A DNA stretch of 64,000 nt from Candidatus Eisenbergiella intestinipullorum (GTDB taxonomy: Bacteria; Bacillota; Clostridia; Lachnospirales; Lachnospiraceae), in assembly GCA_019119815.1 (NCBI GenBank), contig DWWH01000033.1, forward strand, positions 1 through 64,000. The letters run 5' to 3'. The position numbers and the translations under genes were made by a program. Shown piece after piece: positions 30,309 to 36,634 of this stretch. The notes beneath the pieces are model-generated. The model did not search any database. It was not told where the DNA came from and saw only the letters and a program-made list of their open reading frames with translations. Within the stretch, counting starts at the first letter, position 1. Each line of letters opens with the position of its first letter.

Positions 30309-30337
30309 TTGACTTTTTCCCGCCGCTCTGCCATAAT
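30309..30337 (+). promoter_or_regulatory. Promoter of VTC/DUF4956/CotH operon
   Basis: TTGACT (30309-30314), 17 bases, CATAAT (30332-30337). The start point should be near 30344, leaving a leader of about 290 bases. Confidence 0.8.
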
Positions 30338-30347
30338 ACATTCAATA

Positions 30348-30412
30348 TGCGGCGAAGCCCGCTGTCCGGCAGAACGGCGGGCCAAAGCAGGAGCTTTTTT
30401 CAAGAAGCCGCA
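30348..30412 (+). ncRNA. Structured 5' leader RNA of unknown class
   Basis: A three-way layout sits at the very 5' end of the predicted transcript. Closing stem TGCGGC (30348-30353) pairs with GCCGCA (30407-30412). An inner hairpin GCCCG/CGGGC (30357-30361 with 30378-30382) has a CTGT bulge and an upper CCG/CGG stem around GCAGAA. A second small hairpin GCTT/AAGC occupies 30393-30408 and partly competes with the closing stem. A purine stretch (GGGGATGGGAG) follows. I compared it mentally with c-di-GMP, ykkC, fluoride and preQ1 consensus patterns without a match. It could be a riboswitch, a processing signal or chance folding. Confidence 0.4.
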
Positions 30413-30433
30413 GTCTTTTGGGGATGGGAGAAA

Positions 30434-30547
30434 ATGTTTTTTCAGAGCATACGGCGGACAGTCCGCAGGAGGATCCGCTTCCGCATCGGAAAAAACCGCC
30501 TGTACGGCGTTCCATATGGGTGTTGTTTGAGATACGGCCGGATATAA
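30434..30547 (+). CDS. Possible 37-residue arginine-rich leader peptide
   Basis: An ATG at 30434 follows GGGAG at short spacing and opens 37 codons, MFFQSIRRTVRRRIRF then a Tyr/Gly/Cys-containing tail, ending at 30547 before the T-rich stretch at 30564-30570. The Arg content suggests a leader peptide or a chance frame in GC-rich DNA. It sits inside the long leader of the VTC operon; I see no homology. The rest of the 367-bp gap 30268-30634 is the promoter and structured leader. Confidence 0.25.
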   Translation: MFFQSIRRTVRRRIRFRIGKNRLYGVPYGCCLRYGRI

Positions 30548-30634
30548 CTGTATCTTGAACAGCTTTTTTTCTGCCCTTTTTTCTGTATCAGATCATCCGG
30601 CAGCGCCGGGAGGCGCCCGAAGAAAGGAGCGGCT

Positions 30635-31360
30635 ATGGACCGTTTCAGTGGAAAATACCGTCATGAACAGAAATACCTGGTGGACGAGCGGGATATTGCC
30701 CTCATCACAGCCAGGATCCGCCCGCTGATGAAGCCGGATGCCTTCCATCCGGATGGAGCATACCGCATCCGGAGCGTGTATTTTGACGACCGGCAGGATT
30801 CGGCTCTGCGCCAGAATCTGAACGGCGTCTCTCCGCGCAGCAAATTCCGGATACGGATCTACGATGAAAGCATGGATGTGATCCATCTGGAGCAGAAGCG
30901 GAAGGACCACGACCTCACGCTGAAAAAAAGCTGTGTCCTCACCGCGGAGGAGTGCCGGCTGCTTCTGAGCGGAAGGCCCGTGCCGGGTGCGGGAAAGGAC
31001 AGGCCGCTTTTTTTGCTCCTTCAGGCGCAGATGCGGATGCGCCTCCTTCTGCCGCGGATCCTTGTGGAATATGAGCGGACCGCCTACACCTGCCGGGAGG
31101 GAAACGTGCGCGTCACCTTCGACCGGAACCTGGCCTCCTCCGACTATGTCCTCCGCCTTTCCGATCCGGCGCTTCCCAGGCGCCCTGTCATGGCTCCGGG
31201 ACAGCATATCATGGAGGTCAAATACGATGAGTTCCTCCCTTCCCCGATCCGCAGCGCGCTGAACATGGGAAAGCTGGAACGGACCACCTTTTCCAAATAT
31301 ACGCTCTGCCGTCTGTATGCGCTGGGCCCCTCCGTTTCCGGACCGTTTTTGCGGCTGTGA
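30635..31360 (+). CDS. VTC-domain protein (polyphosphate polymerase-like)
   Basis: A 241-residue soluble protein of the triphosphate-tunnel fold related to yeast Vtc4. Tunnel residues occur in order: KYRHEQKYLVDERD (start), YRIRSVYFDD, SKFRIRIYDE, IHLEQKRKDHDL, RILVEYERTAYT, VRVTFDRNLA, HIMEVKYDEFLP and FSKYTLCRLYAL. AAAGGAG lies 6 bases before the ATG. Bacterial members are often encoded with DUF4956 and CotH proteins, as here, but their polymerase role is not established. It is the first gene of the operon behind the structured leader. Substrate could be ATP or another triphosphate; this is inference. Confidence 0.9.
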   Translation: MDRFSGKYRHEQKYLVDERDIALITARIRPLMKPDAFHPDGAYRIRSVYFDDRQDSALRQNLNGVSPRSKFRIRIYDESMDVIHLEQKRKDHDLTLKKSCVLTAEECRLLLSGRPVPGAGKDRPLFLLLQAQMRMRLLLPRILVEYERTAYTCREGNVRVTFDRNLASSDYVLRLSDPALPRRPVMAPGQHIMEVKYDEFLPSPIRSALNMGKLERTTFSKYTLCRLYALGPSVSGPFLRL

Positions 31361-31411: not shown

Positions 31412-32086
31412 ATGAGCTTCCAAGACATCATCAAAAATTCCATCCTGGAAACGATGGAGAACAACACCCTGTCCACGGCTTCCCTCTGCATCACGCTGGG
31501 TATTGCCATCCTGTTCTGCCTTTATATCTACGCGGTATATTATCTGTCGCAGAGGAAGGGCTTTTACAGCAAGCAGTTCAACATCGTGCTCGGGGTCCTG
31601 CCCGTCATCACCGCAGGCATCATCCTCGCCATGCAGTCCAATCTGGTCATCTCTCTCGGCATGGTGGGCGCGCTGTCCATCGTCCGGTTCCGCACCGCAG
31701 TCAAAGAGCCGAAGGATCTTCTGTTCCTTTTCTGGTCCATCGGGATCGGCATCATTCTCGGCGCGCGCAACTATGAGCTGGCGCTTCTCATCTCCCTCGT
31801 CGTCACCATTCTGCTGTTCGGGCTGGAGCTGATCCCGGACAGCAGGGCGGCCCTGCTTCTCGTGGTCAACCTGGACCGGGAAGGACGGGAGGACGAGCTG
31901 ATGTCCGCCGTGGAAAAGCTTTCCAGGAACGCCAGGATCAAGTCCCGCAGCCGGACCATGGACGGCACCGATCTCATCATCGAATGCCGTACCAGACAGG
32001 AGAAAGCGCTGCTCGACGCCGCCTCCTCGATCCCCCACGTTCAGAGCGCCTCCCTGATCGCCCATGACGGAGAGGCCGTCTATTAA
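31412..32086 (+). CDS. DUF4956 membrane protein
   Basis: A 224-residue protein with three to four N-terminal helices (LCITLGIAILFCLYIYAVYY, FNIVLGVLPVITAGIILAM, NYELALLISLVVTILLFGLE). The signature GMVGALSIVRFRTAVKEPKD precedes a cytosolic C-domain of about 90 residues (LLLVVNLDREGREDELMSAV ... RTMDGTDLIIECRT) with a ferredoxin-like look. It lies 51 bp after the VTC gene and 24 bp before CotH. This trio recurs in Firmicutes, and the DUF4956 protein is thought to be the membrane partner of the VTC protein. The biochemical function is unknown. Confidence 0.92.
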   Translation: MSFQDIIKNSILETMENNTLSTASLCITLGIAILFCLYIYAVYYLSQRKGFYSKQFNIVLGVLPVITAGIILAMQSNLVISLGMVGALSIVRFRTAVKEPKDLLFLFWSIGIGIILGARNYELALLISLVVTILLFGLELIPDSRAALLLVVNLDREGREDELMSAVEKLSRNARIKSRSRTMDGTDLIIECRTRQEKALLDAASSIPHVQSASLIAHDGEAVY

Positions 32087-32110: not shown

Positions 32111-33823
32111 ATGAGTAAAAAGTGGAAACTGTCCGGCCTGCTCCTGCTTCTGGGCGTATTTGTCCTGTTTTTTCTCTCCGGCCTGAAGCAGGCGCAGACC
32201 GCATTCATCAGCATACGGGAAAAGGACGGCAGTCAGGCCGTCTCTGCTCATCTCACCAGCGGGGAAACCTCCGTCTCCATAGACGCCTGGCAGTCCGCCG
32301 GGGGAGATTACTGGCTTTTTCTGCCCTCCTGGGCCGAAGACCGCCTTCTGCAGACGGAGGGGCCGGCTTCGGCATCCGCTTCCGGCCGGAAAAAAAGCTT
32401 CTTTTCCCTGCCCCTGCTGTCCTCCGGCCAGGCCTTTTCCCTTGCGGACGGAAGCAGTCTCACTATCCTCACCGGATCCCGCATCCCCTCGGTTTTTCTC
32501 ACACTCAAACACGACCTTTCCCATATCAGCTCCGATAAGGAGCAGTCCGATTCCGGGCAGGCCCTCATCCTGGACGGGGACGGCAGGACCCTCTATTCCG
32601 GCGGGCTGGACCGTATTAAGGGACGGGGAAATACCAGCTGGGAGCAGGACAAAAAGCCCTACAACATCACCCTGCAGGATGCGGTTTCTCTGCCCGGCAT
32701 GGAAGGGCGGACCGCGGAATATTCCCTCGTAACCTCCAGCGATCTCACCTTTCTTCGGAACCGTATTTCCAACGAAATGGGGCAACTGGCAGGCACCAGC
32801 AGCATGTCCTGCATCCGGGTCAATCTGTATATCAACAACAGCTTTGAGGGTGTCTATGAGCTGTATCAGAAGATCACGCCGGAAAACCTGGGACTGACCG
32901 ATCTGGAAGAGCTGACCGAACAGGCCAACCCTCTGCAGAGCGAAGAAAGCCTGACCCAGCTCACCACCGGCCTGACCATCGATGACTGGAATCAGTCCGT
33001 CACCGGAAAATGGTGGGATTATGAGCACAATCCGGAAAACATCACGGGCGCCTACATCCTGGAGGGAGACAATGCCCTCCGCTACACAGACGAGGCCAGC
33101 GGCTTCATCCTGGCAAGCGGGGCTTATATGGTATCCAAATCCCCAGCTCTTCTGAGCGAAGCGGAATATCAGTACATTCTTTCCTATGTGCAGGAATGCG
33201 AAAACGTCATGCAGCAGAGCGTAGGGCTGAACGATTACCAGGCCCTTTCCGCTTATATCGACATCCCCAGCTTTGTGGGCAAATATCTGGTGGAGGAGGT
33301 CAGCAAGAACATCGACAGCTCCGCCACCAGCCAGTATTTCTTCAAAGACCGGGACGGCCTTCTGTATGCCGGTCCCGTCTGGGACTATGACTGGGCCTAC
33401 GGCGTGGAACGCATACAGGAGGACATCGACTACACGGACCCGGAGGGCTTCTCCGCCCGGGACATTCCCGGAAGCCTGACCTGGTGGCAGCTTCTGTATT
33501 ACAACAACGCCTTCTATCAGGATGTGACATCCGTCTATAAGGACATCCTCTATCCCTGGCTGACCGGCCTGACGGAAAGCGGTCTTTCCGACTGGGCGGA
33601 GGAGCTGTCAGACAGCGCGGTCATGGACTACCTGCGCTGGGGGCGGACGGATGCCGGAACGGGCGGGGCGGACTCTGATCCCGCCGCGGCAGGCACAGAA
33701 TCAGACGCGCAGTCCCTTTCCCCGGTCAGTCAGGCGCGCCGGGCCTACCTGGATCAGGTGGAGCAGGTCCGCTCCTTCCTCGCCGCCAGAAAGGAATTCC
33801 TCTATCGCGAATGGGTGGGGTAG
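32111..33823 (+). CDS. CotH-family protein kinase-like surface protein
   Basis: A 570-residue protein with an N-terminal membrane anchor (LSGLLLLLGVFVLFFLSGLK) and an external body. It matches CotH spore-coat kinase folds: IKGRGNTSWEQDKKPYNITL carries the conserved Gly/Arg and Lys, followed by FLRNRISNEMGQ, CIRVNLYINNSFEGVYELYQ, FVGKYLVEEVSKNIDSSATS and the metal-binding LYAGPVWDYDWAYGVER. The C-terminal part has an Ala/Asp/Gly-rich stretch. CotH proteins phosphorylate coat or surface proteins. The gene starts with AGAGG 6 bases before the ATG. Linkage to VTC and DUF4956 suggests work on a cell-surface polymer or phosphate group rather than only spores. Confidence 0.9.
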   Translation: MSKKWKLSGLLLLLGVFVLFFLSGLKQAQTAFISIREKDGSQAVSAHLTSGETSVSIDAWQSAGGDYWLFLPSWAEDRLLQTEGPASASASGRKKSFFSLPLLSSGQAFSLADGSSLTILTGSRIPSVFLTLKHDLSHISSDKEQSDSGQALILDGDGRTLYSGGLDRIKGRGNTSWEQDKKPYNITLQDAVSLPGMEGRTAEYSLVTSSDLTFLRNRISNEMGQLAGTSSMSCIRVNLYINNSFEGVYELYQKITPENLGLTDLEELTEQANPLQSEESLTQLTTGLTIDDWNQSVTGKWWDYEHNPENITGAYILEGDNALRYTDEASGFILASGAYMVSKSPALLSEAEYQYILSYVQECENVMQQSVGLNDYQALSAYIDIPSFVGKYLVEEVSKNIDSSATSQYFFKDRDGLLYAGPVWDYDWAYGVERIQEDIDYTDPEGFSARDIPGSLTWWQLLYYNNAFYQDVTSVYKDILYPWLTGLTESGLSDWAEELSDSAVMDYLRWGRTDAGTGGADSDPAAAGTESDAQSLSPVSQARRAYLDQVEQVRSFLAARKEFLYREWVG

Positions 33824-33830
33824 CGCGGGC

Positions 33831-33860
33831 TTGTATCTTTTTCCCGTCCTGTAGTATAAT
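33831..33860 (+). promoter_or_regulatory. Promoter of MBOAT-SGNH pair
   Basis: TTGTAT (33831-33836), 18 bases, TATAAT (33855-33860). It starts just after the CotH stop, so the acyltransferase genes can be expressed apart from the upstream trio. Confidence 0.7.
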
Positions 33861-33949
33861 AAATGTTGCTGTTCGGATACCTCCGGACAGCGGTTGATAA
33901 ACTGCGTCAATGACCGGCCGGACCGCTGCCGGGTCAGAAAGGGATCTTC

Positions 33950-35440
33950 ATGCTTTTTAATTCGTTCGGCTACGCCGTTTTTCTCCCCATCGTCTTCCTT
34001 CTGCACTGGCTCGTTCCCCGGAAATGGCGCTGGGCGCTTCTGCTTGCTTCCAGTCTGTTCTTTTACGCTTCCTGGGGCCCGGAATACATCGTTGTTCTCC
34101 TCCTTTCCATTCTGGTTTCCTACTTTGCCGCGCTGTATCTGGAGGGGGCCGGCGCACCGGACAGAAAGGCGGGCCGGAATCCGGGCAGGAAGGCTTCCGG
34201 AGCCGTTCTCCTTCTTTCCATCCTGTTCTGTGCCGGGATGCTTTTTTTCTTTAAATACCTGAACTTCTTTTCTGAAAATATGACCGCTCTGCTGCGGCAG
34301 TTTTCCATTCCCATGCAGCCCTTTACCCTGCGGCTTGCCCTCCCCATCGGGATTTCCTTTTATCTGTTCCAGACGATCAGCTATCTCGTCGATGTATACA
34401 GGGGCAAGATCCCCGCAGAACGGCATCTCGGCATTTATGCGGTCTACATTTCCTTCTTTCCGAAGGTCATGCAGGGCCCCATCGAAAGGGGAGGAGCTCT
34501 TCTTCCCCAGCTGCACAGGCCGGGCCGTTTCCACTACGGTCAGGCTTCCTATGCCGTCAAGCAGATGGCCTGGGGCTTTTTCAAAAAGCTGGTGCTGGCG
34601 GACGGACTTTCCGTTTATGTCAGTCAGGTCTATGATAATCTGCCCTCCTATACCGGCTTTTCTCTCCTTCTTGCTACCTTTTTCTATGCCGTTCAGCTGT
34701 ACTGTGATTTTTCCGGATATACGGACATCGCGCTGGGCTCCGCCGGACTTCTCGGCATCCGCCTTTCGCCCAACTTCCGTTCCCCCTATTTTGCCTCCTC
34801 CATCAAGGATTTCTGGGGCAGATGGCACCTTTCGCTTTCCGGCTGGCTGCGGGACTATATCTACATTCCCCTGGGCGGGAACCGGGTCGGAAGGATCCGC
34901 CATGCCCTCAACATCATGATCACCTTCCTGGTCAGCGGTCTCTGGCACGGGGCGAGCTGGAATTATGTGCTCTGGGGCGGCATCCACGGTGCGCTCCAGG
35001 TGATCGAAGGCTTTTTCCCCTGGAACAAAAAGAGTTCTCCCTTCCAGACCGACAGGCGGCTTCATTCGCTTCTGTGCATCGTCACCGTCCCGGCAACCTT
35101 CCTGCTGGTCTGCTTTGCCTGGATTTTCTTCCGGGCCGCTACCTTCCGGGACGCTCTTTATGTGCTGCGCAACATGTTTACGGGCATCGGCTCCCCCTAC
35201 ACATATTTCCATGACTGCGCGCTGCAGATGGGGCTTACCTTCCGCAACCTGGTGTTTCACTGCCTGCCCATGATCCCGCTGTTTCTGTTCGATCTCGTTT
35301 CCCTGAAGACCGACGTGATCGCCCTGATCTCCAGGCAGCGTTTCTTCATCCGCTGGCCGGTCTATATCCTGCTGCTCTTAGTCATCCTGCTTTTTTCCGA
35401 GAAAGGAGTGACCACAGAATTCATTTATATGCAATTCTGA
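33950..35440 (+). CDS. MBOAT O-acyltransferase (AlgI/DltB-like)
   Basis: A 496-residue polytopic protein that should carry acyl groups across the membrane to an extracellular polymer. It starts MLFNSFGYAVFLPIVFLLHW; AAAGGG lies 6 bases before the ATG. Typical AlgI signatures: LFFYASWGPEYIVVLLLSIL, LPIGISFYLFQTISYLVDVY, SFFPKVMQGPIERGGALLPQ, VQLYCDFSGYTDIALGSAGL, and the catalytic-region FWGRWHLSLSGWLRDYIYIP with ALNIMITFLVSGLWHGASWN containing the conserved His. The partner SGNH gene follows after 9 bp. The acceptor is probably a surface polysaccharide. Confidence 0.96.
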   Translation: MLFNSFGYAVFLPIVFLLHWLVPRKWRWALLLASSLFFYASWGPEYIVVLLLSILVSYFAALYLEGAGAPDRKAGRNPGRKASGAVLLLSILFCAGMLFFFKYLNFFSENMTALLRQFSIPMQPFTLRLALPIGISFYLFQTISYLVDVYRGKIPAERHLGIYAVYISFFPKVMQGPIERGGALLPQLHRPGRFHYGQASYAVKQMAWGFFKKLVLADGLSVYVSQVYDNLPSYTGFSLLLATFFYAVQLYCDFSGYTDIALGSAGLLGIRLSPNFRSPYFASSIKDFWGRWHLSLSGWLRDYIYIPLGGNRVGRIRHALNIMITFLVSGLWHGASWNYVLWGGIHGALQVIEGFFPWNKKSSPFQTDRRLHSLLCIVTVPATFLLVCFAWIFFRAATFRDALYVLRNMFTGIGSPYTYFHDCALQMGLTFRNLVFHCLPMIPLFLFDLVSLKTDVIALISRQRFFIRWPVYILLLLVILLFSEKGVTTEFIYMQF

Positions 35441-35449
35441 GAGATGCCC

Positions 35450-36634
35450 ATGAAAAAATTTATTGTCAAATGTGTTCTCGCCGTCTGCATCACCCTCTGC
35501 TGTCTGTTTTATCTGGACATGATGTATGAACAGAAGGTCAGCACCGGCATGTCGGAGATCAACGCCTTTCATTTCATACCGGAAAACATTCAGATCGCCA
35601 ACGTGGGGAGCTCCCACGGCCAGTGCGCCTTCAACTGGGACACGCTCGCGCAGGAGCGGGGCTATGAAACCTTTAACTTCGCCCTCACCAGCCAGTCCTT
35701 CCTGTACGATTACTCTCTGATCAACATGCATAAGGACGATTTTTCGCCGGGCAGCATCCTGTTCATTCCCGTCTCCTACTTCTCCTTCAATGAGGAGGCC
35801 ACCAGCCCGGAGGATCAGGAGGCCATCAGCGTCCGCTATTACCGCATTCTGTCCCCTCAGTACAATCCGGACTACAGCCTGTACAAGGATCTGGTCACCG
35901 TCCGCTTCCCCATCCTTTCCGCCGGAGACGAGATCTTCGAGCTGTTCAAACCGCCCATCATCTTCCCGTCTCTGTCCGAAAACAAGAAAAATGTCGTATA
36001 TGCGGCGGAAGCACAGGCCGGCGAAAGCACGGCGTCAGATGCCGAAAGCATGACGGATGACGGCCGGACCGCGGCAGACGCCGAAAGCACGACGGACGAC
36101 GGCCAGACCGCGGCAGACGCCGAAAGCACGACGGATGACGGCCGGACCGCGGCAGACGCCGAAAGCGCAGCAGACACCGGAAACACGGCGGATGCGGCTC
36201 AGGAGGGCACGCCGGAGGAAATCTACGGCGCCGAAACCGTTCAGGAATTTCAGGAGAAAGGGCTGGCAAGATACCGGAGACATTTTGAGAACAGAGAAGA
36301 ATATTTTGAAGCGGACAAACGGCAGAAGCTGGTCGATCTGATCACCCTGTGCAAGGAAAACGACATCGTTCCGGTCCTGATCACAACGCCCTTTACGATC
36401 TACTATAATCAGTATGTATCGGCAGATTTTCTGTATGATTTCTACACGGTCATCAACGACATCGCTCTGGAATACGGGGTCAGCTACTATGACTACTCCC
36501 ATGATGAACGGTTCCAGACGAATCTGAAATATTTCGGAGACGCAGATCATCTGAACGAGGAAGGCGCAGTCTATTTTACCGGCCTTCTGACGGAAGAAGT
36601 GGCCGAGCTTTCCGCCTACCTGGAAACGCACTGA
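35450..36634 (+). CDS. Membrane-anchored SGNH-like acyltransfer partner (AlgJ/DltD role)
   Basis: About 394 residues, starting MKKFIVKCVLAVCITLCCLF; GAGAG stands 6 bases before this ATG, while another ATG two codons earlier (35444) overlaps it. An N-terminal anchor is followed by an external SGNH-type domain: IQIANVGSSHGQCAFNW gives the Ser block, and FGDADHLNEEGAVYFTGLL gives the Asp/His block. A 13-residue repeat (A-E-S-T-T-D-D-G-R-T-A-A-D) occurs about 3.3 times between the two halves. With the MBOAT protein it likely completes O-acetylation outside the cell. The family is assigned from context and these two blocks. Confidence 0.82.
   Translation: MKKFIVKCVLAVCITLCCLFYLDMMYEQKVSTGMSEINAFHFIPENIQIANVGSSHGQCAFNWDTLAQERGYETFNFALTSQSFLYDYSLINMHKDDFSPGSILFIPVSYFSFNEEATSPEDQEAISVRYYRILSPQYNPDYSLYKDLVTVRFPILSAGDEIFELFKPPIIFPSLSENKKNVVYAAEAQAGESTASDAESMTDDGRTAADAESTTDDGQTAADAESTTDDGRTAADAESAADTGNTADAAQEGTPEEIYGAETVQEFQEKGLARYRRHFENREEYFEADKRQKLVDLITLCKENDIVPVLITTPFTIYYNQYVSADFLYDFYTVINDIALEYGVSYYDYSHDERFQTNLKYFGDADHLNEEGAVYFTGLLTEEVAELSAYLETH
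36041..36196 (+). repeat. 39-bp in-frame tandem repeat
   Basis: Three full units (36041-36079, 36080-36118, 36119-36157) and a degenerate fourth encode A-E-S-x-T-D-D-G-x-T-A-A-D. The units differ by a few bases. Such a tract can change length by slippage and makes a flexible acidic linker inside the SGNH-like protein. Confidence 0.85.

Follow-up and report, generated by a model that had tools for sequence, protein, structure and literature searches.

The window analyzed here is a 64,000-nucleotide stretch of Candidatus Eisenbergiella intestinipullorum DNA (contig DWWH01000033.1). On its forward strand (+), it carries a string of genes encoding a VTC-domain protein (30635..31360; Pfam PF09359, E 8.9e-39), a DUF4956 protein (31412..32086; PF16316, E 2e-13), a CotH-family protein (32111..33823; PF08757, E 2.9e-23), an MBOAT acyltransferase (33950..35440; PF03062), and a DltD-like protein (35444..36634; PF04914, E 2.1e-5). 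An earlier note on this DNA had placed its subject in a VTC/DUF4956/CotH context, which the Pfam matches confirm. The MBOAT gene belongs to the same string and may have its own promoter. A promoter-like TTGTAT-N18-TATAAT can be read in the CotH-MBOAT gap (33824-33949 in the window) in 5/5 orthologous loci, unlisted by the scan; in the window it is directly followed by a 10-pair hairpin, GCTGTTCGGA-TACC-TCCGGACAGC, again a 5'-end hairpin. Inside the DltD-like gene, at 36038-36181 of the window, an acidic peptide unit (DAESTTDDGRTAA) is repeated.

VTC-type, DUF4956, and CotH genes are known to accompany Gram-positive exopolysaccharide (Pel) clusters (PMC7112168), and VTC and CotH genes also occur in a Clostridium perfringens locus (PMC2879425). 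The locus in the window resembles the Gram-positive Pel clusters in grouping CotH, a polyphosphate-polymerase gene, and DUF4956, a comparison covering the accessory genes; it differs in that these are followed by MBOAT and a DltD-like gene. Neither "riboswitch" nor "leader" occurs in the main text of PMC7112168. A limited literature search found no report of a VTC-DUF4956-CotH leader or of an RNA element controlling these genes, and no paper joining CotH, riboswitch, and Lachnospiraceae.

Upstream of the VTC gene, a promoter matching the consensus at 10/12 positions (TTGACT-N17-CATAAT, with TG before the -10; 30309..30337, +) predicts a transcript start at about 30344-30345, roughly 4 bases ahead of a structured region, in line with the start proposed in the earlier note. 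The purine tract said to follow the structure is present in the sequence. The leader of about 290 bases likewise ends as described, at a strong ribosome site: AAAGGAG precedes the VTC start codon (ATG 30635), the site and codon together forming GAAAGGAG at 30622..30637 (+), with small changes among the related leaders.

VTC orthologs with 75-83% identity were found in 6/12 other genomes of the genus. DUF4956 lies 3' of VTC in all six of these loci and CotH in five, the contig of L086 ending before CotH and that of L083 inside it; the VTC-DUF4956-CotH order holds as far as the contigs reach. MBOAT and DltD follow in the four loci whose contigs extend that far (L084, L085, L087, and L089). The gene upstream of the leader is, by reading, an FtsX-type permease in the window and L008 and a different gene in L003 and L004. 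The leader thus stays with the operon across changes of upstream neighbor. A wider genome scan recovered the same six VTC loci plus L088, whose leader reads the same as that of L008 and was dropped, leaving seven of eight leaders (L002-L008) as distinct. All seven have the same architecture: a strong promoter, a hairpin at the RNA 5' end (H1), a UCUUUUGGGGA-like block, a second hairpin (T1) with a U-tract, and the VTC ribosome site. In the promoter, 18/29 columns are invariant across the seven leaders, more than the four-fold-site rate predicts (P 0.0013). MAFFT alignments made for the tail and for whole leaders (A4 and A5) misplace variable parts and were kept out of all counts.

T1 is the best-supported element of the leader. 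It is an uninterrupted, perfect 16-bp stem (30522-30537/30548-30563) closed by a 10-base loop (feature 30522..30563, +) and followed by a U-tract at 30564..30582 (+) made up of T7 (30564-30570), CTGCCC, and T6 (30577-30582). The earlier note saw here weak alternative stems between 30530 and 30562; there is a single 16-bp hairpin, neither weak nor alternative, with a z of -4.87 in the window that 0/200 shuffles equaled. Its suggestion that the T7 run could mark an attenuator fared better, being supported by the hairpin with its U-tract and by conservation in seven leaders: a stable hairpin followed by a U-tract lies between promoter and first gene in 7/7 leaders, with conserved pairing and compensatory changes. 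The z of T1 ranges from -2.29 to -7.25, and in six leaders 0/200 shuffles were as good; the weakest T1, that of L005, was equaled by 6/200. Pairing is kept in 97.3% of 112 cells, a level reached by 0/500 shuffles, and falls to 38-50% when the partner arm is slid. Four of the 16 pairs have changed on both sides (9/500 shuffles as high) and seven never vary, and further pair types are no more numerous than in shuffles (404/500 as high). When arms were swapped across species, the native assignment ranked 6 of 5040.

Pairwise identity in T1 (0.72-0.93) exceeds that of four-fold degenerate sites in VTC and DUF4956 (0.53-0.73; 0.90 for the closest pair) in 21/21 species pairs. Because 39 of the 118 four-fold columns (33%) are themselves invariant in all seven, the 23/44 invariant columns of T1 represent a moderate excess (P 0.0065), the subregions for such counts having been picked after looking. 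The T1 loop, with 3/10 invariant columns against 33%, shows no conservation above the neutral level and so gives no support to a loop-binding factor. The U-tail score of T1 is -5.64 in the window, where 0.12% of positions reach -5; the window's terminator after DltD, taken as an operon-end control, scores -3.92. The U-tails of L007 and L008 start with an A before T7 and score about -3.85, like this control and unlike the window. T1 is absent from the listing of our terminator scan, probably because its 10-base loop lies outside the 3-8 bases allowed. In a rough by-eye control at five loci, the sequence after DltD was not kept between diverged species: the terminators there are unlike between the window and the close pair L085/L087, and L084 has none.

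A covariance model of T1 gave seven strong matches (69.7-80.5 bits) in the 13 genus genomes, all of them VTC leaders, the next match scoring 31.6 bits. Among 397 genomes of the family, drawn from a larger group, the window alone scored high and the best other match reached 35.7 bits; it precedes a gene that we take, by reading, for a BglG/LicT-like antiterminator. We read 18 weaker matches (3/16 weaker ones in the genus and 15/18 in the family outside the window). Many look like ordinary terminators, and L068, L070, L073, and L075 are not terminator-like. L065, L066, and L078 precede genes taken by reading for BglG/LicT-like antiterminators, and their leaders have in common the stretch GTTTGTTATTACGT before the terminator, which we presume to be the usual ribonucleic antiterminator. 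Among 36 further loci with VTC genes (search R1), T1 was found in L088 alone. Two further VTC paralogs in the window's own genome start 25 and 29 bases after another open frame and are devoid of such a leader. By reading, the VTC genes of L095, L096, L097, L025, and L029 follow an open frame of repeated DTDYGPNNDGVTDY-like units.

The 5'-terminal hairpin H1 (30348..30412, +) consists in the window of an outer stem (30348-30353/30407-30412) and two inner stems, with a minimum free energy of -31 kcal/mol for the region. Folded over 30340-30420 its z is -2.25 (5/200 shuffles equally good), and over 30346-30416 it is -2.88 (0/200). The three-stem 5' structure described in the earlier note is therefore real in the window; it is peculiar to it, since the other six leaders have a single hairpin in the same place, some with internal loops. 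H1 sits at the extreme 5' end in 7/7 leaders, its 3' edge 0-2 bases from UCUU, with z values of -1.74 to -3.00 (3 to 18 of 300 shuffles equally good). On the assumption that transcription starts 7 bases downstream of the -10, the RNA preceding the conserved block measures 23-25 bases in L006-L008, 43-44 in L003-L005, and 70 in the window. Across the seven leaders we found no common sequence, loop, or size in H1, pairing alone being kept. Swapping H1 halves among species weakens pairing, the native combination coming first among 5040 permutations; the halves are of unequal length in different species, however, and this alone puts swapped pairs at a disadvantage. H1 thus appears, from these comparisons, to be kept as a hairpin and not as a sequence, which would be expected of a 5' stabilizer or a pause stem more than of an aptamer.

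The earlier note had taken this region for a riboswitch of unfamiliar class. As a ligand-binding aptamer controlling T1, H1 would have in its favor its position at the extreme 5' end, its stable three-stem fold in the window, the adjoining conserved block, and the terminator downstream. Typical aptamers, however, are conserved above the level of their flanks, and a riboswitch requires a conserved sensor plus a competing fold. H1 has no common nucleotides and differs greatly in size among the seven leaders, across which no aptamer conserved in both sequence and structure emerged. No Rfam 15 family reached its gathering score in the window, nor in a set of 20 related loci that contained the other six leaders, in agreement with the note, which saw no match to common classes; an open Rfam search of the leader returned four weak matches, the best with an E of 0.77 (a CRISPR repeat model). 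Nor did any pairing that competes with T1 stand clearly above swaps: upstream RNA against the two T1 arms ranked 2812 and 1017 of 5040, with seven species and hence little power. The comparison of orthologous leaders for covariation that the note had proposed, naming an absence of covarying pairs as refutation, found covariation in both H1 and T1; covariation of this kind points to a terminator and a hairpin with a structural role rather than to a ligand pocket. We find the riboswitch idea unsupported and regard it as very unlikely.

Just 3' of H1 lies the conserved block TCTTTTGGGGA (30414..30424, +), a possible short U-tract or pause site, kept in the seven leaders except for the variant TCTTAGGGGA in L008. 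In the block region, 8/12 columns (76-87 of alignment A2) are invariant (P 0.018), the region having been picked after looking. The block's U-tail score is moderate, -3.64 to -3.67 in six leaders and -3.02 in L008, while in the window as a whole 3.1% of positions score -3.5 or better and 7.0% score -3 or better; pausing or weak termination at the block is possible on this score, and no more. Folded by itself, the block forms a hairpin that in none of the leaders stands clearly above shuffles, 30 to 197 of 300 of which did equally well. The spacer between T1 and a point 12 bases beyond the block varies from 1 to 111 bases across leaders, which fits separate modules. Several pairings of the block and its surroundings were tried and rejected. 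The block resembles the T1 5' arm and can form a nine-base pairing with the 3' arm in L007; as an antiterminator its native rank is only 1612 of 5040. Block pairing with the T1 5' arm ranks 1704, the T1 loop with the block and with the tail 3858 and 4856, and the tail with the two T1 arms 2416 and 3386, each of 5040. No tested upstream segment co-varies with either T1 arm, in a set of seven species that has little power.

An alternative reading is processive antitermination, in which H1 and the UCUUUUGGGGA block would recruit a protein factor, in the manner of a nut site or a LoaP hairpin, and let the polymerase pass T1. The conserved block lies within 0-2 bases of H1, its distance to T1 varies widely, and the pairing tests in seven species detected no antiterminator. 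LoaP provides a precedent: in the Bacillus velezensis dfn leader, as in the leader described here, a small hairpin precedes an intrinsic terminator, with a long operon downstream (PMC12691694). The dfn hairpin is, however, a UNCG-type element bound by LoaP (PMC12691694), whereas the H1 loop is not conserved and no LoaP was found in genome G000. In this 92.6% complete genome, the only match to PF02357 is core NusG, 174 bits over the cut-off of the NCBIfam nusG model, and the LoaP model stays under its cut-off (101.9 against 125). One PF02357 match was also found in each of G004, G006, G008, G009, and G010 and none in G005 (81% complete); these matches in the other six leader genomes (81-97% complete) were counted untyped, and a paralog may have been missed. 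In addition, of 15 exact copies of the block 12-mer in the 13 genus genomes, five are at these leaders and ten in unlike settings with, by reading, neither an H1-like hairpin nor T1; two of the ten (L108 and L111) sit in loops of different terminator-like hairpins. We therefore consider LoaP unlikely to act on this leader, and processive antitermination of this kind an improbable explanation overall. CsrA was another candidate, given the GGA motifs in the block region, and was rejected: csrA was found in 0/7 leader genomes, which makes its action here unlikely. The gene is present in 5/6 other members of the genus and missing from G003 as well, a distribution over G000-G012 that suggests two lineages in the genus.

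Control by translation can be envisaged at two points of the leader. Upstream of T1, translation of a short leader ORF could set termination. In 5/7 leaders a frame of 10-46 codons starts at a TTG inside the block, with similar 17-codon peptides in L003 and L004, and a 37-codon frame starting with ATG is also present in the window. Yet no frame is common to all seven leaders, L008 has none (with at least 5 codons and at least 4/6 ribosome-site matches required), ribosome sites are poor, and the L005 frame breaks off; leader-peptide attenuation seems to us extremely doubtful. Downstream, the U-rich stretch 3' of T1 could pair with the ribosome site in read-through RNA. The CCUUUU run after T1 can indeed do so with a GAAAGG-like site in 6/7 leaders, but a U-run facing an A/G-run can hardly fail to pair, and native pairs are not clearly above swapped ones (rank 922 of 5040). 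We give such translational control scarcely any credence.

The promoter, H1 pairing, block, and T1 co-occur in 7/7 distinct orthologous leaders found, a small sample of mutually related sequences from a single genus. On this comparison, the VTC operon leader is probably a transcription-attenuation leader, with the T1 attenuator placed behind the 5'-terminal hairpin H1. A similar arrangement is documented for the orphan rimP-leader (PMC2965389): a terminator in the 5' UTR, a conserved stem, and no visible antiterminator; a protein acting in termination or antitermination is what the authors of that paper argue for. The rimP-leader precedes another gene and is described in PMC2965389 as the most ubiquitous leader of this type, whereas the VTC leader was found in one genus only; the two are likened by description, not by sequence. 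With riboswitches, LoaP, and CsrA checked, an intrinsic attenuator of the kind argued for the rimP-leader would be, by analogy, the remaining option.

We propose that transcription starts about 4 bases 5' of H1, which would then cap the 5' end of the RNA. Its most likely jobs would be to shield the RNA from 5' attack and perhaps, jointly with the U-rich block, to make the polymerase pause. The polymerase would next meet the intrinsic terminator formed by T1 and its U-tract ahead of VTC, where part of the transcripts would stop, the remainder continuing into VTC-DUF4956-CotH. From sequence data we infer all three components of this scheme, namely termination at T1, the stabilizing role of H1, and a regulated read-through fraction. 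Most likely, this fraction would respond to a trans-acting termination or antitermination factor or to elongation conditions rather than to a metabolite sensed by the RNA; we further infer that a trans-acting factor sets read-through at T1. One specific form of this attenuation scheme, which we hold to be quite unlikely, would make H1 and the UCUUUUGGGGA block a new recruitment site for an antitermination factor other than a NusG paralog, letting the polymerase past T1. If true, it would represent a dedicated Eisenbergiella switch for the VTC-DUF4956-CotH surface genes.

Altogether, this looks like a leader that throttles its genes in the ordinary way rather than like a new sensor of a metabolite. 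LoaP, CsrA, and known riboswitches were all not found, which leaves fewer candidates for acting on it. The T1 hairpin probably throttles a set of cell-surface genes, and the conserved attenuator heading VTC, DUF4956, and CotH offers a concrete control point for these genes.
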